A stretch of 32,419 nt of DNA, taken from a virus. This document shows positions 4,155 through 29,655 of the stretch, one piece after another. Numbering within the stretch: the stretch's first letter is position 1; every line of letters begins with the position of its first letter. The stretch is taken from positions 1 to 32,419 of IMG/VR virus record IMGVR_UViG_3300025674_000203. One strand, given 5' to 3'. The notes under the pieces were generated by a model that saw nothing but the letters and a program-made list of their open reading frames with translations, ran no database searches and was not told the DNA's origin. A program made the position numbers and the translations under genes.

Positions 4155-6872
4155 ATGCATATAAAAAGCCTTAGTCAAAAAGATCGACATGGTAATATGT
4201 TTTCTGTTGAATACTTTGAACCAGAGACTAGTATACCTATGATGATGGTAATCCCCGATATGCCTGATGGATATAACGGGGCTGATACTGATAATCATCC
4301 AGGAGACCCTAAAGGAACTGATACAGTCCCTGCATGGCTAACTCCAGGAGAAAATGTAGTTAATGCTGAGGCGTCTCGAATTCCAGGCAATCAAGAAAAG
4401 ATTGATCAAATGAATGAAGAAGGTAGGCAAATACAAAAGGCACAAGGTGGACCTATTCCTACTTATGAGTCTGATGGCGGCTTTATTCAAGGTCTTGTAG
4501 ACACATTTACGCTACCTAAACCCCCTCCAGGAATTGAATATCGTAGACACAAAGACGGCTCTATTGGTATGTGGGCAGGTAATATTTATCGTGGCAAATA
4601 TAAAGAGCCAAAGAAAAAAGAAAGTTCTTTTTCAAAATTCCTTGGTGTTAACTATAATTATGATGGCGGTAGTATACCTCCTATGTATGCTCAAGAAGGC
4701 AATTACGTAATGCCTGAATTTTTAAGTGACAAAGCGTTAAATCCAATACTACAAGGTATGTATGCTACAGAAACAAGTTCAGGCGCTAATGTAAAACCTT
4801 CTTCTGCAGGTGCTATTGGTCCAATGCAAATACTACCAACTACAGCTGCAAATCCTGGAATGGGCGTTCAACCAAGAACAATTAAAGATATTTCTACTTT
4901 AGAAGGCTCACAGTCTTTTGCTAAAGATTATATGAGAGGTATTCATCAAGCAAACCCTGATTTTAATCTTGAAGAAGTAGTAACTGCTTATCATTCAGGA
5001 CCAGAAAATGTTCGTAAAGCAAAAGCAAATACAGAAGAACTTGGTCCTCAAGGACAATCTTATTTTGGTAAAGTTATGTCTGCAATAAATCCAATTTCAG
5101 AAGCACAAGCAGCTGGTAATATATCTAATGCTCAAATGCTAGAGCAAACAAAAGGACCAGATGATGGCACTCGTGGTGTTCCTCCTGTAGATCAAATACC
5201 TAAAAACAGAGAATTACCTATTGAAAAACCTAGTATAGTAGATCCTTTAATAGAGGGAATTCCAATTGGGCCTGGAGGAGCAGGTATTACAACTGCTGAT
5301 ATTGCAAGTGATATTGTTAATGAAGATCAAATTACTATTAAGCAAAACCAAGATGCTATTCCTGTTTTAGAATCTAATTTACAGAGTGCAAAAGAAGAAG
5401 AAGCTGCAGCTGCTAAAGTTATTAATGATAAGCAAGCAGAAGGCAATCCTATTTATCAAGATGAGATACTTAGACATCAGGAAGCTAAAGCAAAAGTTAA
5501 TTCTCTTTCTAAGACAGTTGAAAAAACTAAAGAAGAAACTAAAATTGCACAAGAAAATGTAGATCAAGCTGTTCCTCCTATTCAGAACTATAATACTGAA
5601 ACAGGTGAATTTGATATACCAGAAGCAAAGGATAAAGATATTCCTGATCCTTCGGTACAATCTAAAAAAGACGCAGCTATAACTGAAGCAATGAAAAACT
5701 TTAGAGGTAAAACATTTAGTCAACCTTCAGCAGATGAACTAAAAGAAGTAGAAAGACTTGGAAGTAGTTCTCAAGGTGAAGGTATAGGGACTACAGTTAT
5801 GGGTTACTTTAAAGATATGTTTAAAGACTTGTTTAGTGGACCTGAACTTGCACGTATGGCAGTTATGTACGCTGGTTCTCGCCTTATGGGATATGATCAT
5901 GGTGGCTCACTGCAATACTCTATGAAACAATACATTGATCGTGTAGACGCTGCAAATACTCAGTTCCAAAAAGATATTCGGGATGATGACTATCAAGATT
6001 TTACCGAAGAGTCTCGCAAAGAGTTTGAAGAAACAAGAGACTATTCTGTTCTTAAAAAGAAATCAACTCCAGTATCAATGACTGAAACAACAGGGACTAC
6101 CTATGTTCGTGGTGTTGGTATTGTAAATACTGTTAAGCTTAGCGATAAAACAGAAGGAGTTTTAATTGGTGGTAAGCCTGTTCGTATTACTCAAGTAATT
6201 GATAAAGACAGTGGTTTAACTCTTGCAGATATTATGGAACCCGTTGATAAAGAAGTACACAGTGTTCAATCAGTAAGAAAACGATTAGATGGGGTTGCTG
6301 AAGAAGCAAGAAAAAGTGCAAGTCAAAATATAGGGTTAGAAGAAGGCAAAGGCCTTTCAGATGATTCATCTTCAGTTGCAATGGAAGCCGCTTCTAAGTT
6401 TAATAAAATTCTTCTTAGGAATGGTGCAAGTATTGCTCAAGCAGAAGACATGGAAATTGTTGTTAACGGTGCTATAAAAGATTATTATAATGCTAAAGCT
6501 CAAGCTAAGCGTGATGGTACTAAAATGCCTCTTACAGTAGAAGCTTACATTGAACAACGAATGATTGAACCATTAACTAATAATACTATTACAGCAGATA
6601 TGGTTCGAGGTACTTCAGCTGATAATCTTCGAGCGCTTAATAAGCGTATTTATCGTGGTATGGATAATAAAGATAAACGAAATCCAGCTTTTCAAACCGA
6701 ATATAGGAATGAATGGGCAGCAACTAAAGCTGCTTGGCAATCGATTGGTGATGAGCGAGCAGAATGGATTAGGAAAGCAGAAAAGAAAGATGGATATTCT
6801 GCGTTTACTCTTTGGATGTCTAAAACAGCTGATGAAGATATTGATAAAATACTTGAAGAAGCTACAAAATAA
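4155..6872 (+). CDS. Internal virion protein with lytic transglycosylase (SLT) domain
   Basis: A 905-residue virion-cluster protein, ATG two bases after the previous stop, with GGGAG upstream. Residues 55-75 (GTDTVPAWLTPGENVVNAEA) match a motif frequent in phage tape-measure and ejection proteins. Residues about 198-310 form an SLT lysozyme-like domain: candidate catalytic E206 in ATETSSG, AGAIGPMQILP (218-228), AYHSGPENV (278-286) and YFGKV near 303. GG-P-Y motifs occur at 98-104 and 171-178. Residues about 395-480 are Glu/Lys/Ala-rich and probably coiled coil. The rest is helical and unknown. By analogy with T7 gp16 it would open the peptidoglycan locally as DNA enters, though here it is a separate, smaller protein. 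Confidence 0.75.
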   Translation: MHIKSLSQKDRHGNMFSVEYFEPETSIPMMMVIPDMPDGYNGADTDNHPGDPKGTDTVPAWLTPGENVVNAEASRIPGNQEKIDQMNEEGRQIQKAQGGPIPTYESDGGFIQGLVDTFTLPKPPPGIEYRRHKDGSIGMWAGNIYRGKYKEPKKKESSFSKFLGVNYNYDGGSIPPMYAQEGNYVMPEFLSDKALNPILQGMYATETSSGANVKPSSAGAIGPMQILPTTAANPGMGVQPRTIKDISTLEGSQSFAKDYMRGIHQANPDFNLEEVVTAYHSGPENVRKAKANTEELGPQGQSYFGKVMSAINPISEAQAAGNISNAQMLEQTKGPDDGTRGVPPVDQIPKNRELPIEKPSIVDPLIEGIPIGPGGAGITTADIASDIVNEDQITIKQNQDAIPVLESNLQSAKEEEAAAAKVINDKQAEGNPIYQDEILRHQEAKAKVNSLSKTVEKTKEETKIAQENVDQAVPPIQNYNTETGEFDIPEAKDKDIPDPSVQSKKDAAITEAMKNFRGKTFSQPSADELKEVERLGSSSQGEGIGTTVMGYFKDMFKDLFSGPELARMAVMYAGSRLMGYDHGGSLQYSMKQYIDRVDAANTQFQKDIRDDDYQDFTEESRKEFEETRDYSVLKKKSTPVSMTETTGTTYVRGVGIVNTVKLSDKTEGVLIGGKPVRITQVIDKDSGLTLADIMEPVDKEVHSVQSVRKRLDGVAEEARKSASQNIGLEEGKGLSDDSSSVAMEAASKFNKILLRNGASIAQAEDMEIVVNGAIKDYYNAKAQAKRDGTKMPLTVEAYIEQRMIEPLTNNTITADMVRGTSADNLRALNKRIYRGMDNKDKRNPAFQTEYRNEWAATKAAWQSIGDERAEWIRKAEKKDGYSAFTLWMSKTADEDIDKILEEATK

Positions 6873-6880
6873 ACTTATAT

Positions 6881-6932
6881 TCCCTAGTGAGCTAAAAACA
6901 CCCTTATAGGGGAGGCTCCCTAGGGATTTTTT
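6881..6932 (+). terminator. Intrinsic terminator whose loop holds a promoter
   Basis: The arm TCCCTAG (6881-6887) pairs with CTAGGGA (6920-6926). After one mismatch, GAGC (6889-6892) pairs with GCTC (6915-6918). The hairpin is followed at once by TTTTTT (6927-6932). The roughly 22-base loop contains the phage promoter-like site whose start would be G6909. RNA arriving from the upstream gene can fold the whole hairpin; RNA starting inside the loop lacks the left arm. Confidence 0.65.
6888..6910 (+). promoter_or_regulatory. T7-type phage RNA polymerase promoter (copy 1)
   Basis: The site reads CTAAAAACACCCTTATAGG and shares the 12-base core CACCCTTATAGG, with an A-rich element upstream, with two other sites in the window (29614-29634 plus, 26462-26483 minus). 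T7-class promoters have TATA just before a GG start, as here, giving G6909 as the likely first base. It would drive the two largest virion genes. The inner CCCTTATAGGG can also form a 4-bp stem with a TAT loop. Confidence 0.6.
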
Positions 6933-6948
6933 ATTTATGGAGGTCTAT

Positions 6949-9900
6949 ATGTCTAGACAATTTACAGGTGCAGATGGCGTTACCTATACATGGGTTGATG
7001 CAGACACCTTTACAGATGGGAAGGAGTCCTATCGTGTGCAAGGTTATAACGCCCCTGAAGAAGAAAAAATAGTTGCCGATGAAGAAAAAGGCCTCCGTTT
7101 TAAACAAGGTCAAGTAGGCGGTAAAGAAACTACTCGTGCAGTAGAACGAATTACTGAGGCTGGTGGCTTTAATATTGTAGAAGATTTAGGTAAGACAGAT
7201 TCTTTTGGTCGTAAAAGAGTAAAGCTTAAAAATGAATTTGGTGATGATTTAACCAATACTCTTTATAGATCAGGTGCAATTGATATTAATCTTTTTACCG
7301 ATGAAGAAGGAATTCAAGCAGCACAATCAGGTCGTGTATCTAAATTACTTAATGGTAAACGTCAATATGACAGTATTATTGCTGAAGAATTATCTGAAGT
7401 TCAAAACAGACCAGTTACATTTAAAGAAACTGCACTTAACGAAAGAGAATATCTTAACTCAGTTGTTGCTACTATTGCTTCACAGCAAGGGCTAGATTTA
7501 GCAGATGAAGATGATTATCGTACTGCTTTAAACTATGCACAAGATGGCACGTATGATATGCGTAGCCTTCCCTTCCAAGGAATTGAATTTAGAAGCCCTG
7601 ATAGGACTATTGAAGGCGTAGCATACAATCAATTTGGAACTGCATGGAATCAAGGTTGGGGAGGAATGTCAACTGGTCTTGCAGGGTTTGCAGAGCTTAT
7701 TGGTGTTGGTCTTGGCAGTGAAACCCTAGAACAGTGGGGTGCTGACAAAGTAGAACAAGCAAAAGATGATTTGCTAGATGCACCAATGCTACGTAATCTT
7801 GATTACAAAGACGTAGATGATGTATGGAGCGCTTGGGGTTATCTTACTAATAATGTAGCTATGTCTGCGCCTTATCTTATTACACTAACTGCAGGAACAC
7901 TTGCTGCTCCTGTAACAGGTGGCGCATCTGCTGCAATTGCTTATGGGTCAGTTGGCGGCAGTTATGCTGGTCAAGTATGGAACGATATTCAAGGTGAAAA
8001 AGGAAGAGCAGAAGCAGCAGGATCTATTCTTGCAGGTACAGGTATGGCTGTTCTTGATCGGTTAGGTCTTGCAGGGATACTCAAGCCTTCTCAATTGTTA
8101 ACTAAACAAGGCCGTCTTGAAGTCGCTAAAGCAGTAAAAGCTAAAAATCCTAAAATGACTTCTGAAGAAGCATTAGAAGCAGTAAACAAAGCAAGTAAGG
8201 CAGAAATTAAAGGCGTTATTGAAGGCATGGGTAACTTTGCTTCTGATAATATTAATAATAGTGCTATACTAAAACGTATACTAACAGGTGCTGGTCGTGG
8301 TGGCTTAACTGAAAGTATTACCGAAGCAGCACAAGAAGGATTAGGCTATAGTGCGTCTGCAGCAATGTCTGAAGGTGGACTAAAACAAAACTTTAATCCA
8401 AATGAGTTTACTAATCTTCTTACTTCAGCTGCAATTGCAGGGGGTACACTTGGTGCTGGGTTTAGTTCTGCAGGTCAAGTAATTGACGTTGGCGATCGTT
8501 ATGCTATGCAAAAAGGTTTAATGCTTGGCACATCTAAATCACTTAATGAATACGATAGATTATCTACTGATATTGGTAATGTAGGTAGTGTAGAAGATAT
8601 TATTTTTGGTAAAGATGGTTTGCTAGAACAAACTAAAAACAAAGACCCCGACAATACTAACGCTAATGTAACTGTTAATTATGCAGATAGAGGTAAAATA
8701 AATAGAGGAAATCTTTGGGATAAGGTTAAAAATGCCCCTAAGTATTTACCAGAACTTTATCGTGCTGCGGCTACAACAGCGTTTAGACCTGAGTTGTTAA
8801 GGCGTTCTGAAGCAGCTAGAAAATTATATGCGCTAGTAGGGCAACCGCTAGGTAAACTTTATTCAGGCAGAGACGTTCAAGCTAGAGAAGCACAAGTAAG
8901 GGCTGATCTTCTTGAAACAATAAACCCAAAGCGTACCTTTAAAAGATTTGGTATGCGTGACACAGTTAAAAGTTCTCAACGTATTTCGGATATGATTCGT
9001 AGATACATGAATGGTGAACGTGATATTGAAGTTGAAAATAATATTGCGGCTATTGAAGCTACAATTATTGAATTAGAAAACTTTGCTGAAAAAGATTATA
9101 TCTATAAAAACGCTACTTATCAAAATCAAAAGGCAGGTCGTGAGGCGCTTAAGAAAACAGATAAGTGGTGGCTTAAACACCAGTCTTGGGATTGGATGAA
9201 AGTAAGGCAAAATCGCGATGAGTGGTTTAAGTTTATGCGTGATAATACTGATTACACGACTGCGGAGTTAGATATTCTTTATAATAAAATATCTAATAAC
9301 GAACCTGCTACTGACTTTTCTCTTGTAGAAGGAGTAGAGTTTATTCCAGGGTCTACTAAAGGTAGGCGTGATGAAATTTCTGATAAACCTGGGTATGAAA
9401 AGTTTGCTAACACTAACATACTTCAAAATATGATTGACGCAGCAAGTCAAAATGCTAAGTATGTAGCTTATACTGAATACTTTGGGGCTGGCGGTAAATA
9501 TCTAGATCAGCTGTTTACAGATATGCGTAAAGATCTTTCAGATGAAGAAATTGCAGAGATAGCTTACCATACTAAATCTATTATTGATGCTGGCACAGGT
9601 AACTTTAATCCTATACAAAATAAAATGTTATCTAAACTTCAAAATACAGCGGCATTTTATTCGGCTATGGTAGGTCTTCCTTTATCTGCAATTAGCTCTT
9701 TTCCTGAATTTGGAATGATACTCTATCAAGGTAGAGGTGGTAAAGATGTTCAGAATGGAATTAATTCTGCAACAGGAACTATAGTAGACATGCTTAAAAC
9801 AGTAATGAATACCAAACAAAATAAAGCATTGTCAAATATTCCACATGCTAATGTAGATAATAAGGCTCAACAACGATTGACTAACTCAGGGTTATTTAAC

Positions 9901-10890
9901 GATGATGCCGCTATTGCTACACGTTTAGGTCTTGGTGAAACAGATATAAGTAAAGCATGGTGGCAAAAGCAGTTTTATAAGTTTTCAGGAATTGCAGGAA
10001 TTACTCAGCTACAAAGGGCAATTGCAGCGTCTGCTGTATCAGGCTTCGTAAGTGATCGCATTCGAATTCTTGCGGCTAAACCTGCAGATGCAGAGTATAA
10101 TCAAGACCAATTAGACGTTTATGTTCAGCTTAAGAATTTAGGTATGGACGTAGATAAGATGATTGAGTTGTACAATAAGTATAACAATCAAGAAATGTTT
10201 GACAGTCTTATGGATGCGGATAATGCTACTGCAGCTGATAATGAATTCATAAATGATCAAATGGATACTGTAACTTGGTATTTTACTAACGATAGAATAC
10301 AAAATCCACAAGCTTATAATCGTCCTTTGTTCTTTCAAGATCCGCATTATCAATTGTTTGTACAGTTTAACGGTTTTATTTCAACCTTTACTGCAAACAT
10401 TGTACCTCGTCTATACAATGACTATCTTAAAAATGGTAGCCCAACAATGAAGTATAATACTTTTGCTTTAATGGTTACTATGATGGCAATGGCAGGTGCT
10501 TCACAGTGGTTGAAAGATTATATTAAGTTTGGTCAAAGTACTCCTTATCTCTCAGATGCACAACTTGTTCAACGAGCAATCCAAGCTTCTGGTTTGTTAG
10601 GTACAGGTGAACGTATTGTTCAGATGGGATTACCGCTATACAAAAGCAGAGACCAAAGTCTTGTTGATCGTTTCTTTGGTGAAACAATTGGTGGATCTCC
10701 AGGTGTTAGAAACGTTGCTACTGCAATTAAAGGTATTGAAGCGCTTGGTGAAGGAGATACTAATCGTGCAGTTAAACAAGCAACAAAACTTATTCCAGGA
10801 ATAGGCCCAATTACGCCTGTTAGAAATACAATAACAGATTTAGTACACGGAAGAACACCAAATCCATATCCGTTTAGGGAGAATGAATAA
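6949..10890 (+). CDS. Large internal virion (ejection) protein with N-terminal SNase-like domain
   Basis: I chose the ATG at 6949 (MSRQFTG): GGAGG at 6939-6943 is well placed, whereas the in-frame ATG at 6937 overlaps that ribosome site. The protein has 1313 residues. Residues 10-115 resemble staphylococcal-type thermonuclease: VDADT (16-20), R29, E37 in YNAPE, and FGR (R88), matching SNase R35, E43 and R87 with the same R-to-E spacing of eight; the SNase D40 position is N34. A Gly/Ala-rich hydrophobic stretch lies at about 300-345. The C-terminus (WLKDYIKFG, AIQASGLLGTGERI, then TPVRNTI near the end) resembles the ends of other podovirus ejection proteins. It lies between the transglycosylase gene and the candidate virion polymerase. 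Confidence 0.7.
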   Translation: MSRQFTGADGVTYTWVDADTFTDGKESYRVQGYNAPEEEKIVADEEKGLRFKQGQVGGKETTRAVERITEAGGFNIVEDLGKTDSFGRKRVKLKNEFGDDLTNTLYRSGAIDINLFTDEEGIQAAQSGRVSKLLNGKRQYDSIIAEELSEVQNRPVTFKETALNEREYLNSVVATIASQQGLDLADEDDYRTALNYAQDGTYDMRSLPFQGIEFRSPDRTIEGVAYNQFGTAWNQGWGGMSTGLAGFAELIGVGLGSETLEQWGADKVEQAKDDLLDAPMLRNLDYKDVDDVWSAWGYLTNNVAMSAPYLITLTAGTLAAPVTGGASAAIAYGSVGGSYAGQVWNDIQGEKGRAEAAGSILAGTGMAVLDRLGLAGILKPSQLLTKQGRLEVAKAVKAKNPKMTSEEALEAVNKASKAEIKGVIEGMGNFASDNINNSAILKRILTGAGRGGLTESITEAAQEGLGYSASAAMSEGGLKQNFNPNEFTNLLTSAAIAGGTLGAGFSSAGQVIDVGDRYAMQKGLMLGTSKSLNEYDRLSTDIGNVGSVEDIIFGKDGLLEQTKNKDPDNTNANVTVNYADRGKINRGNLWDKVKNAPKYLPELYRAAATTAFRPELLRRSEAARKLYALVGQPLGKLYSGRDVQAREAQVRADLLETINPKRTFKRFGMRDTVKSSQRISDMIRRYMNGERDIEVENNIAAIEATIIELENFAEKDYIYKNATYQNQKAGREALKKTDKWWLKHQSWDWMKVRQNRDEWFKFMRDNTDYTTAELDILYNKISNNEPATDFSLVEGVEFIPGSTKGRRDEISDKPGYEKFANTNILQNMIDAASQNAKYVAYTEYFGAGGKYLDQLFTDMRKDLSDEEIAEIAYHTKSIIDAGTGNFNPIQNKMLSKLQNTAAFYSAMVGLPLSAISSFPEFGMILYQGRGGKDVQNGINSATGTIVDMLKTVMNTKQNKALSNIPHANVDNKAQQRLTNSGLFNDDAAIATRLGLGETDISKAWWQKQFYKFSGIAGITQLQRAIAASAVSGFVSDRIRILAAKPADAEYNQDQLDVYVQLKNLGMDVDKMIELYNKYNNQEMFDSLMDADNATAADNEFINDQMDTVTWYFTNDRIQNPQAYNRPLFFQDPHYQLFVQFNGFISTFTANIVPRLYNDYLKNGSPTMKYNTFALMVTMMAMAGASQWLKDYIKFGQSTPYLSDAQLVQRAIQASGLLGTGERIVQMGLPLYKSRDQSLVDRFFGETIGGSPGVRNVATAIKGIEALGEGDTNRAVKQATKLIPGIGPITPVRNTITDLVHGRTPNPYPFRENE

Positions 10891-13800
10891 TGGGAAAGAG
10901 AAGTAGTGGTGCATTTACCAAGATGCTTCGACAGCAACAATCGCTGGAAGCACAAGATGCACAACAACGTGCTGCAGAGATTGCTGATCAGCAGTCTAAA
11001 GCAGTCGAATTAAGTCTCCCTACGGAGCAATTAGAAGAAGCAGTGCCACAAGCAATGCCTATTGAAACTGGTCAACCTGATCCGCGTTATGAAGGTTATC
11101 AAGGGCCAGCTCGTGAAAACCTTCAACGTGCAGATCTTACTTTTGAAACAAATGTAAGCCCTAGCCAAATAGCTTTGGAAGAAGTTGGTCAACAACAGAT
11201 ACCTAAACTTGGTGAGCTAGGAGTTGCACCTACAACAGCTGGTATGCTATCACCTGAAGAACGTGGTGCAGCATTAGTTGAACAGCTTGAAGATGAAGGA
11301 GTTGTTCGTCCAGGGGCTTTTAACGAAGAAACTGCAGCACAATTTGGTAGGTTTGTTGATGATAGACTTATCAGAGATTATGCAGAAGGCGATGCTAAAG
11401 CTGAAGATGATGGGCGTTTACTTTTATCTAACACGTTAGAAGCTGGTGCTAAGAGTTTTCAAATTAGTGCAGGTAATATGAATTTATTTGGTCAAGAAAT
11501 TGATTTAAATACTGTACCTAAATTTGAAGATTCTGTTGCTGATCCACATGGTTTTCTTCGTAGATATGCAGGTGATTTTTCATATGCAATTAAGGGTGAA
11601 GATAAGCTTAACATGCTAGAAGACCCTGCTAATGTTAATTCAGAAATTAGACCTGAGATGGGCCGAGCCGCAGCATTAGCTGTAATACTTGAAGTAGGCA
11701 ATCGTCTTAACTCTCAAGCATTAGAAACAGATAAAGATGAAAGTCAACGTAGATTTGATGGTGCATTAGACCGTCTTAATATTGGTAAAGCAATTGGTCA
11801 ACGCATTGAGCGTCTTCTTTATCCAACCCAAACAGATAATCCTGCAGATGTATTTACAGGAGAAACCTCTGAGTTTGGTTATAATTATAGGCTAACCCCT
11901 GAAGAACAATCTATATTGGGTCAATCAGTGATACAAGGTTTTGCTCATAGCCCTGCTTTCGATTGGCTTATTCCTCAAATGATTAAAGATGAGAATGGTA
12001 AAAAGAAAGCTACGTTTAGAACCACTAGAGAAGGTGAAGTAAAGCTTGCTCAAATTAGGCGTGGTGCTAGGCTTGCTCTTGGTTTTAAAGACCATGACAG
12101 ACCTGTATCTCTTGTTCAAACATCACAAGGGCGGCTTCGGGGTGAAGGTGCTTATACACAAAAACAGCTTACTGCTGCAGTTAAGAAAAATCAATTATCA
12201 GATACTATTAAAAATGCAGAAGGTGTAGTAGAAACTCTAGGCGCTAAAAAAGCTATTGCAGCATTAGGTTCGGTAGCACATACTACTAGCCCTCATAAAG
12301 TATTATTGGCAAGGGGTATGTTTAATCGTGCTGAAACAGATCGTAATAGTATCTTTGCTAAGTTTTCTAAACAGAATCAAGCTTATATTGATAAGAAGTA
12401 TGGTGAGATACTTAGAAAATATGAAGCACAAGCTAGAAAAGACACTACTTTTACTGCTCAATCATTAGGTTATGAAACCTTTGCAGAAGCAGCTATGGCT
12501 GATGCAATGCGTATAACTGAAGAACATATGCGTATTCGTAATCAAACAGTTGATGATGCTATTTCTCGTATGGGTAACTCTTTTTATTATGGTTACACTG
12601 CTATTAATAACTCTGAACGCTTAATGATTACTCAGACTGAGCTTAACTATCAGGCTGATAAAGTTGCTCGCTTTGTGGTTGATGGTGCTGTACCTGCTAG
12701 GTTTAAAAAAGGAAGTAATAATAAAACTGAACAAGGTTTCTTTAAAATACTTGCAAGGTCTCTTGTAGAAGGCGCAGATAAAATGACTTCTGAAAGGCAG
12801 TTAGCCGAATTCGAAGCAAGAAAAGATGAGTTCGTTAACTACGGAAATCAAGTTCTTAATTATACACTTCAGAATGAAGGCAGGCTTGCAACAGCAAAAG
12901 AAAATGATCTTGCAGATCTTCCTCCATTAAAGCTTAGTGCAGACCTCGAAGAGTTTTTAGCGGATGCAGGTAAAGATGAGTTTTATTTTGTCTTAGATGC
13001 TTTACATGAGTTAGCTCGATATGAGCAAGCAACTGATGGTCAGACTTTTCAGACAAGAGTTAAAGCTGAAATAGATGGTAACGCTAATGGGGCTACTATT
13101 CAAGCTATGCAGATGGGTGTAGAAAATATCTTAAAGAAAGGAGGTGTTCTATATCAAGAAGCAGAGGCAATTGAAGCTGATATTCGAGATGATGTGTTTG
13201 ATTACTTAGTAACTGAAGAACAACTAGTCAAAGAGCCTGAGATTGGTCCTGTATTAGAGCAAATTAAAGCAACAGCAGGTAAAGTAAAAGAATTTATGAA
13301 AGTCCCTATTATGACTTCTATTTACGGAAAAGATCCTGCATTCCATAGAGACACAGCTAAAAAGTTTTATGATGAAAATTCTGAAATGTTTGCAGATGTG
13401 TTTCTTGATCCTAATCCAAATAAAAATAGAGAACTAATTATTACTAAGCTCCAAGAAAGGCTTCAGTATGGATTGGAACAAGGTCTAGGTGGCGCTCTTG
13501 AACATGCTAAAATGGCTAAACGAATTGGACGTATATTTGTTATTGCAAATGAAATTGCAGAAGTAGAAGGCGCTAATGGATTTATGGTTCAATCAGGTGG
13601 TCATGAATTTGTCGATGCTAGCACAACGCGTATTGCATTAGGTGAAGGTGCAAGACAAAAAGCGATTAAAGATGGTGTAACAGTAGAAGACAGAAATGTA
13701 ATGGATATTACTACTGCTCGCAGAGTTCCTACTGCATTAGCACAAGCTAGCCGTAAATCAATTGGTCCTGCAGAATATACTACTCCTGATATGGGTAGCA

Positions 13801-14450
13801 AGCTAATGAATCAATTTGCGGTTAATGCTACCCAAAACATTGATGCAACTATTGCTCAAAATACAGTAGCTAGAGTTATCCCTAAACAACCTGGAGCATT
13901 AGTAATGCAAGTATATGATGCTTTTATGGGTGATGCTAATTCTTTTGGTGATCTTATTGAAGTAGCAAACGAAGAATTCTATGAAGTAAATTCAAATTAT
14001 AATATGCTTGAAAAAGAAAGAGATGCTTTACGTAATCTTAAAGACACTGTTAAAGCAGAAGTTTCTCGTAGAGTTGCTTCAGGAGAAAAGTTTGATATTG
14101 GAACTGAAGGTGAATTTAAAGGTCTAGGCAACTTTATTTCTCGTGCCGTTGGCAAAGGCTCTATTATTATGCGTGATATGCCTGAAAGTAAAGCAAGATA
14201 TAAAGCACTTACTGATAATCGAGCTAGAGAGTCTGGCAGAGGCATAGCTAATTTTGCTAGAACTCAAGGATGGAGTCCTGATGCTAAAGAAGTATTAGTT
14301 ACACCTGAAACTTATCAGCAGATGTTTAATGCAATTCTTAATATGTTAAATGTTGAAAATGATCTTGATCAAATGATACGCGAAACAAACAAAGCAAGAA
14401 GTGAAATTCTTGCTCAAATAAAAAAGTCTTTAATTAGACAATACAGCTAA
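10890..14450 (+). CDS. Candidate virion-carried single-subunit RNA polymerase (N4 vRNAP-like)
   Basis: A 1186-residue protein, last of the virion gene cluster; the ATG overlaps the previous stop and GGGAG lies eight bases upstream. Residues 1-130 are Gln/Glu-rich and probably disordered. From about 560 the order matches single-subunit RNA polymerases: R577 followed by LNYQADKVARFVVDG (585-599), comparable to T7 R425 and NPQGNDMTKGLL; D729 in DGNANGATIQAM (motif A, T7 FDGSCSGIQHFSAM); K804 and Y812 in KVPIMTSIYG (motif B, T7 K631/Y639, same spacing of eight); AVNATQNIDATI (977-988) and D1010 in VYDAF (motif C, T7 VHSQDGS and HDSF). This is inferred by eye. If right, it would be packaged and injected, as in N4, to transcribe the first genes. 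The alternative is a plain ejection protein. Confidence 0.65.
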   Translation: MGKRSSGAFTKMLRQQQSLEAQDAQQRAAEIADQQSKAVELSLPTEQLEEAVPQAMPIETGQPDPRYEGYQGPARENLQRADLTFETNVSPSQIALEEVGQQQIPKLGELGVAPTTAGMLSPEERGAALVEQLEDEGVVRPGAFNEETAAQFGRFVDDRLIRDYAEGDAKAEDDGRLLLSNTLEAGAKSFQISAGNMNLFGQEIDLNTVPKFEDSVADPHGFLRRYAGDFSYAIKGEDKLNMLEDPANVNSEIRPEMGRAAALAVILEVGNRLNSQALETDKDESQRRFDGALDRLNIGKAIGQRIERLLYPTQTDNPADVFTGETSEFGYNYRLTPEEQSILGQSVIQGFAHSPAFDWLIPQMIKDENGKKKATFRTTREGEVKLAQIRRGARLALGFKDHDRPVSLVQTSQGRLRGEGAYTQKQLTAAVKKNQLSDTIKNAEGVVETLGAKKAIAALGSVAHTTSPHKVLLARGMFNRAETDRNSIFAKFSKQNQAYIDKKYGEILRKYEAQARKDTTFTAQSLGYETFAEAAMADAMRITEEHMRIRNQTVDDAISRMGNSFYYGYTAINNSERLMITQTELNYQADKVARFVVDGAVPARFKKGSNNKTEQGFFKILARSLVEGADKMTSERQLAEFEARKDEFVNYGNQVLNYTLQNEGRLATAKENDLADLPPLKLSADLEEFLADAGKDEFYFVLDALHELARYEQATDGQTFQTRVKAEIDGNANGATIQAMQMGVENILKKGGVLYQEAEAIEADIRDDVFDYLVTEEQLVKEPEIGPVLEQIKATAGKVKEFMKVPIMTSIYGKDPAFHRDTAKKFYDENSEMFADVFLDPNPNKNRELIITKLQERLQYGLEQGLGGALEHAKMAKRIGRIFVIANEIAEVEGANGFMVQSGGHEFVDASTTRIALGEGARQKAIKDGVTVEDRNVMDITTARRVPTALAQASRKSIGPAEYTTPDMGSKLMNQFAVNATQNIDATIAQNTVARVIPKQPGALVMQVYDAFMGDANSFGDLIEVANEEFYEVNSNYNMLEKERDALRNLKDTVKAEVSRRVASGEKFDIGTEGEFKGLGNFISRAVGKGSIIMRDMPESKARYKALTDNRARESGRGIANFARTQGWSPDAKEVLVTPETYQQMFNAILNMLNVENDLDQMIRETNKARSEILAQIKKSLIRQYS

Positions 14451-14453
14451 ACA

Positions 14454-14500
14454 AAAATACCCCACAGGGAATCCTATATGGAAACCTTGTGGGGTATTTT
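14454..14500. terminator. Bidirectional intrinsic terminator between convergent operons
   Basis: Perfect 13-base arms (14454-14466 and 14488-14500, with ACCCCACA/TGTGGGGT cores) enclose a 21-base loop. The left arm begins with A's and the right arm ends with T's, so transcripts from either strand get a hairpin followed by a U-run. It lies four bases past the last late gene and just beyond the end of the minus-strand operon, so it separates the two transcription units. Confidence 0.9.
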
Positions 14501-26387: not shown

Positions 26388-26432
26388 TGTTTGTCCTTTC
26401 TTTCTGTTGGACGTTACTAAAGGGATCCTAAA

Positions 26433-26453
26433 GGGATACCTTAAGGATATCCC
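26433..26453 (-). other. Hairpin in the leader of the internal early transcript
   Basis: GGGATA (26448-26453 on the minus strand) pairs with TATCCC (26433-26438), and a further T-G and C-G pair extends the stem around a CTTAA loop. It begins about ten bases after the predicted start G26463, so it would cap the 5' end of the transcript. A short direct repeat, ATCCCTTTAG, follows it. It may stabilise or process the RNA. There is no U-run, so it is not an intrinsic terminator. Confidence 0.5.
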
Positions 26454-26461
26454 CTCTCCCC

Positions 26462-26483
26462 CCTATAAGGGTGTGTTTTAAGC
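26462..26483 (-). promoter_or_regulatory. T7-type phage RNA polymerase promoter (copy 2, minus strand)
   Basis: On the minus strand it reads CTTAAAACACACCCTTATAG followed by GGGG. It shares CACACCCTTATAGG with the site before the terminase and CACCCTTATAGG with the site at 6888-6910. The likely start is G26463. It lies in the only coding gap of this part of the operon (26388-26484) and would give the replication genes downstream, including the RNA polymerase gene itself, expression by the phage polymerase. Confidence 0.65.
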
Positions 26484-27077: not shown

Positions 27078-27346
27078 TTTTAGTTTCCTTTCGGTTCATC
27101 ACTCATGCACTCACAGTACACTCACAACCAGATTACTCCACGTAAACTCAAAAATAATCCCAAAGTGGTACTATTAATGCCCTAATAGTCACAAAGTGGC
27201 CCTACTAGTACACATAGCGGTTACTCAGTGTGCCTTGCTAGTACACATAGCGGTCATTCAGTGTCCTATTAGCTTGCAAGTGTCCTCACTCGGAAGACAC
27301 CCCTAACCCCTACGAGCGTAGCGAGCTGTGAATGTATTTGCAAGTG
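27078..27346. other. Non-coding block with degenerate repeats
   Basis: No plausible gene on either strand over 269 bases. It holds four copies of CAWAGYGG (27161, 27192, 27213, 27246), a 17-base exact repeat, a 6-bp hairpin CTATTA/TAATAG (27171-27188), GTGTC/GACAC arms (27280-27300), a CTACGAGCGTAG palindrome-like hairpin near 27308 and a repeated TTGCAAGTGT (27274 and 27338). It is flanked by two tiny membrane-peptide genes. Possible roles are replication origin, operator array or structured leader. Confidence 0.55.
27205..27266. repeat. Tandem direct repeat, 33-base period
   Basis: CTAGTACACATAGCGGT occurs exactly at 27205-27221 and 27238-27254. Each copy is followed by (A/C)-rich bases and TCAGTGT, so the similarity extends to about 28 bases. 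The preceding CAAAGTGG copies look like diverged units of the same series. Confidence 0.75.
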
Positions 27347-29500: not shown

Positions 29501-29655
29501 AACAACACTCCAAAACAAAAAGACGGGAACCGCCCGACACGGAAACAGGGGGGACCACAAAACAAACAAGGGTACCCAACAACACTCTACATCTTTTTTA
29601 AACACAGACAAAGACTTAAACACACCCTTATAGGAAAATTTTGAGGACTCCTACT
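29501..29655. promoter_or_regulatory. Divergent intergenic region
   Basis: Separates the leftward early operon from the rightward terminase operon. No gene seen. It holds the plus-strand phage promoter (29614-29634), a GGGTACCC palindrome, a weak CGGG/CCCG hairpin, and on the minus strand a weak sigma70-like pair (TTGTCT at 29606-29611, TAGAGT at 29584-29589, spacer 16). It is the natural place for the first early promoter, whether read by host or virion polymerase. Confidence 0.45.
29614..29634 (+). promoter_or_regulatory. T7-type phage RNA polymerase promoter (copy 3)
   Basis: Reads CTTAAACACACCCTTATAGG, nearly the same as the minus-strand copy at 26462-26483. The start would be G29633, giving a 23-base leader that carries GAGG before the terminase ATG at 29656. 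Confidence 0.65.

Follow-up and report, generated by a model that had tools for sequence, protein, structure and literature searches.

In IMG/VR virus record IMGVR_UViG_3300025674_000203, a predicted promoter of the type used by T7-like phage RNA polymerases is enclosed by a hairpin that has the features of an intrinsic terminator, and this nested site (6881-6932) is a conserved element under selection. The best explanation, with a probability of roughly 0.6, is that the site serves a T7-like phage RNA polymerase as a stop-and-restart element, at which RNA arriving from upstream would end and a new RNA would begin. The DNA analyzed, here termed the window, comprises positions 1-32,419 of the record (32,419 nucleotides).

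Structure and genomic context of the nested site

The hairpin is composed of arms of 7 and 5 bp, between which T6888 and C6919 are unpaired (Table 1). Arms, T-run, and nested promoter are all found where the original prediction, made from the letters of the window, had located them. The computed fold energy of -21.1 to -21.9 kcal/mol corresponds to the stable GC-rich hairpin of intrinsic (class I) terminators, and the U-run follows directly after the stem, as is typical of this class. Pairing between the two flanks of the promoter amounts to -20.3 kcal/mol; of random positions with matching geometry, 0.13% attain this value. When the stretch was trimmed to the element, 1 of 200 shuffled sequences folded equally well (z -2.9); with wider flanks included, the z value was just -1.34. 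Terminators were rated with our own implementation of the d'Aubenton-Carafa score, which is of E. coli type and trained on the E. coli polymerase. On both strands of the whole window, just two structures score above 20, namely the convergent terminator at 14458-14496, with 25.0 and 23.9 on its two strands, and the nested site, with 20.4; none of 12 Markov sequences of the same composition scores above 15. An Rfam search of the window gave no match above the gathering score.

Table 1 Features of the nested site and of its genomic context in the window
Feature	Position	Strand	Basis
Upstream late gene, 905 aa, lytic transglycosylase (SLT) domain	4155..6872	+	ORF; Pfam PF01464, E=1.9e-7
Outer left arm TCCCTAG	6881..6887	+	Fold; covariation
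Inner left arm GAGCT, overlapping the upstream edge of the promoter	6889..6893	+	Fold; covariation
Predicted T7-type phage promoter, ~-17 to +6, core ACACCCTTATAGGGG	6892..6914	+	3 copies in window; near-invariant in 15 relatives
Putative transcription start (+1), G6909	6909	+	Alignment with T7-type TATA-GGG core
Inner right arm GGCTC	6914..6918	+	Fold
Outer right arm CTAGGGA	6920..6926	+	Fold; covariation
U-run TTTTTT, then ATTTA	6927..6932	+	Sequence; terminator score 20.4
Shine-Dalgarno sequence GGAGG for start 6949	6939..6943	+	Sequence; layout shared by relatives
Downstream late gene, large virion protein	6949..10890	+	PHROG 6958, virion structural protein, E=1.9e-30
1186-aa gene, second in the unit that the nested promoter would begin	10890..14450	+	ORF
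Bidirectional terminator between convergent late and replication blocks	14458..14496	both	Scores 25.0, 23.9; kept in relatives
T7-like single-subunit RNA polymerase, 712 aa	14762..16900	-	Pfam PF00940, E=2.5e-59
Second promoter copy, +1 at 26463, start of leftward replication block; no enclosing hairpin	26452..26480	-
Third promoter copy, +1 at 29633, before terminase-like gene; no enclosing hairpin	29616..29638	+

The nested site is located between the gene of the 905-aa transglycosylase-domain protein and that of the 1317-aa large virion protein, the latter length referring to the listed open reading frame from 6937 (~1313 aa from the ATG at 6949). The rightward late genes stop at 14450, and the polymerase gene lies within the leftward replication genes. 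A further rightward gene starting at ~29641 is called terminase-like by its position and our own reading; it had no Pfam match. Within the leftward gene block, two tandem 33-base copies that are 88% alike are present at 27199-27264.

The unit that begins at 6909 presumably extends to the convergent terminator. Its stem (CCCCACAGGGAATCC-loop-GGAAACCTTGTGGGG) is near-invariant including an AA/AA internal loop, even between relatives with polymerases that are 20% different, and this conservation seems to exceed the needs of a plain terminator. Only the apical loop varies among the relatives; the TATAGG that it contains in the window was considered as a second nested promoter and rejected on account of this variation.

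The promoter and its copies

With up to three mismatches allowed, the promoter core has three matches in the window, compared with 0.01 expected, and each of the three copies just precedes a gene block on its own strand, one per block. A motif that recurs in this manner where gene blocks begin, together with a gene for a T7-like RNA polymerase in the genome, is characteristic of T7-type promoters, and a general scan for sigma-70 promoters gave no more matches than expected by chance. The promoter at 6909 is assigned from its sequence to the phage-polymerase type, and the 712-aa T7-like RNA polymerase is presumed to be its reader. Alignment with the T7-type TATA-GGG core places the putative start at G6909, the nucleotide that had been proposed before.

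The layout with three promoters was found again in the relative G011, and in relatives that were mapped further, promoters and terminators divide the genome into few units, the late genes being split by the nested site. The leader of the replication block (26423-26463, minus strand) contains a second hairpin right after the promoter (GGGATATCCTTAAGGTATCCC), and similar leaders are present in the relatives L217, L223, L224, and L227.

Occurrence in related phages

Related loci were collected from IMG/VR with the polymerase as query (44 loci), with aligned sequences of the downstream protein (20 loci), and with a polymerase alignment, which gave further loci; a search of the viral contigs with the 1317-aa protein as single query found no relative. 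All 15 uncultured contigs that encode a close form of the downstream protein (47-68% identical to that of the window) and cover the junction have a hairpin in this position that encloses the promoter. As the elements of L051 and L053 duplicate others, 14 distinct sequences are available, the window included. Nine contigs encode a distant form of the protein (roughly 28-36% identical over the long aligned segments); here the two genes directly adjoin each other, and the promoter and a hairpin of this kind are both absent. Further distant-form contigs were scanned by pattern, and none has a nested promoter. One distant-form contig, L005, lacks the element and encodes a polymerase that is 91% identical to that of the window; the element therefore travels with the late gene module and not with the polymerase. 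Late and replication modules are mosaic in L005 and in other distant-form loci, the late module being only ~30% identical.

A search of bacterial and archaeal genomes with the polymerase alignment gave no match, and therefore no host was inferred. A 16-base promoter pattern run over all viral contigs was set aside, the hits being mostly unrelated palindromes. Many unrelated viral contigs (L071-L074, L094, L098, L108, and others) contain CCCCCCTTATAGGGGGG palindromes beside ACGTCA-type repeats; these palindromes probably serve another phage group as operators or origins.

Selection on the hairpin

The enclosing hairpin is under selection, since its arms covary in the 14 distinct phage sequences. 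The bases of the promoter are near-invariant, and the sequences of the arms vary between phages in step, the observed pairs including CCCTAG/CTAGGG, CCCTAAG/CTTAGGG, CCCTTGG/CCAAGGG, and CCCTAAAGG/CCTTTAGGG. Because the arms were misaligned by MAFFT, covariation was counted on a layout anchored at the arms, which revealed two-sided changes at 9 pair positions and a one-sided change at 1; in some cases the change is a matched insertion and not a point change. Arms paired with their own partners at a mean of -20.5 kcal/mol, whereas arms swapped between phages reached -14.7 kcal/mol, and 14 of 182 swaps were equally stable. As a control, the flanks of the family's other promoters, which are not enclosed, paired at just -3.4 to -12.5. 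When the nested elements were folded, 13 of 13 surpassed their own shuffled sequences (z -2.9 to -5.3).

The U-run and termination

A perfect U-run is present in 6 of the 14 distinct sequences (the window, L004, L007, L022, L031, and L035). In these six, the long RNA that enters from upstream scores 16 to 50 and is classified as an intrinsic terminator by the E. coli-trained score, and RNA beginning at +1 forms at best a poor hairpin at the U-run, with L004 as a borderline case (1.1). The short RNA of the window, beginning at 6909, contains no hairpin ending at the U-run, which bears out the reasoning of the original prediction that RNA from upstream includes both arms and RNA begun inside includes one. 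The remaining 8 of the 14 sequences have UACUUU (as in L018 and L030) or UACCUU in place of the U-run and score -25 to -45, non-terminator values of the same E. coli-trained score, with the hairpin intact. On a tree of the downstream protein, the quality of the U-run has switched at least two times and up to four times.

Given the scores of the eight sequences with broken U-runs, strong termination is not what these elements have in common. The hairpin around the promoter is rather the constant part, and the strength of the stop seems adjustable, since the U-run switches while the hairpin persists. We infer termination for the window and regard it as doubtful for the eight relatives with broken U-runs. 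The expectation that transcripts from upstream terminate agrees, for the window, with the score of its long RNA; it is weakened by the non-terminator scores of 8 of the 14 sequences and by the T7/T3 precedent, which is an RNase III site.

In two relatives with a weak nested U-run, a further strong terminator, GGGAAGTCAACATGGCTTCCC-TTTTTTT, lies elsewhere in the contig (L260, G008 38899-38919; L261, G010 2448-2468).

Interpretation and alternatives

In the proposed mechanism, RNA initiated at upstream late promoters would copy both arms and fold the 12-bp hairpin, and the polymerase would release it wholly or partly at the U-run, where the transcript of the 905-aa gene would end. Initiation at G6909 would copy the right arm only; no hairpin would form, and the polymerase would continue through the genes of the 1317-aa and 1186-aa virion proteins to the terminator at 14458-14496. 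Whether an RNA ends at the hairpin would be decided by its start site, and the last two late genes would be dosed by a promoter of their own. The hairpin, the nesting, its conservation, the covariation, and the lack of the hairpin in the short RNA were established computationally; activity of the promoter, the identity of the reading polymerase, and termination with its efficiency are predicted in this scheme. The function as an insulator between gene groups that had been suggested for the site is plausible, as the late genes form two units on either side of the site, and is likewise something that we infer. A stricter version can be put forward tentatively, and may well prove wrong: the site would be a promoter-in-terminator module in which the RNA start site alone decides on the stop, hairpin and promoter are fixed by selection, and the U-run is toggled between strong and weak, setting the leak of upstream transcription into the last virion genes.

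RNA processing is the main rival and a serious one, because promoter phi6.5 of phages T7 and T3 lies within the RNase III site R6.5. An RNase III-type cut of read-through RNA would separate upstream and downstream messages, and the promoter in the loop would add uncut transcripts. The arms around phi6.5 pair at -21.6 and -22.5 kcal/mol in T7 and T3, T3 phi13 overlaps R13, and in the present family the hairpin persists where the U-run is broken. The lower stem of R6.5 (AGUGAUAA/UUAUUACU), however, has no counterpart here, the flanks pairing at -2.67 compared with -3.12 for swapped flanks; the stem comprises just ~12-14 bp, and a perfect U-run in 6 of the 14 sequences is unexpected for a processing site. 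Altogether, we regard processing as unlikely to be the main function.

The persistence of the hairpin through the switches of the U-run would also suit a hairpin whose main role is to shield the 3' end of the upstream message or, as an attenuator, to slow the polymerase; termination would then be weak and set by the U-run, and the promoter would be nested to save space. This explanation largely overlaps with the stop-and-restart reading, leaves unexplained why only the promoter at 6909 is enclosed, and appears less probable still than processing. A chance overlap of promoter and terminator, or a structure devoid of function, would be in line with the modest z value obtained when wider flanks were shuffled along and with nothing else; it is contradicted by covarying arms in an element present in 15 of 15 relatives, and we give it hardly any credence.

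As a stop-and-restart element, a single site of ~50 bp could close one message and open another, as compact natural punctuation that is kept by compensatory changes in a group of environmental phages. It lends itself to experiments on the use of hairpins by phage polymerases when a clean U-run is present or missing, and it is a candidate insulator part for gene circuits.

Comparison with known systems

A search of open-licence papers gave no description of a promoter inside a phage terminator. The nearest named phage is Roseobacter phage CRP-7 (RNA polymerase 32% and large virion protein 23% identical), whose corresponding junction is without such an element. The class I terminator Tphi of T7 and T3 resembles the nested site in that a stable hairpin is followed by a U-run and is read, at the nested site presumably, by a T7-type polymerase, but it encloses no promoter; T3 phi11 is located just downstream of Tphi, side by side and not nested. 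A looser likeness exists to T3 phi13 with R13, phi13 preceding internal virion protein genes.

The arrangement is not categorically new, as T7 and T3 provide the nearest precedent in phi6.5, where a hairpin of near-equal pairing energy holds a promoter of the phage polymerase in its loop. In T7, we take the hairpin around phi6.5 to be R6.5; the annotation of R6.5 as an RNase III site comes from the T3 record. R6.5 possesses an upper and a lower stem with an internal loop and has no U-run, whereas the element of the window possesses a terminator-grade U-run, and support for a lower stem was not found in its flanks. Seen beside the nested site of the environmental phages, phi6.5 within R6.5 of T7 would appear to be a single instance of a broader design.
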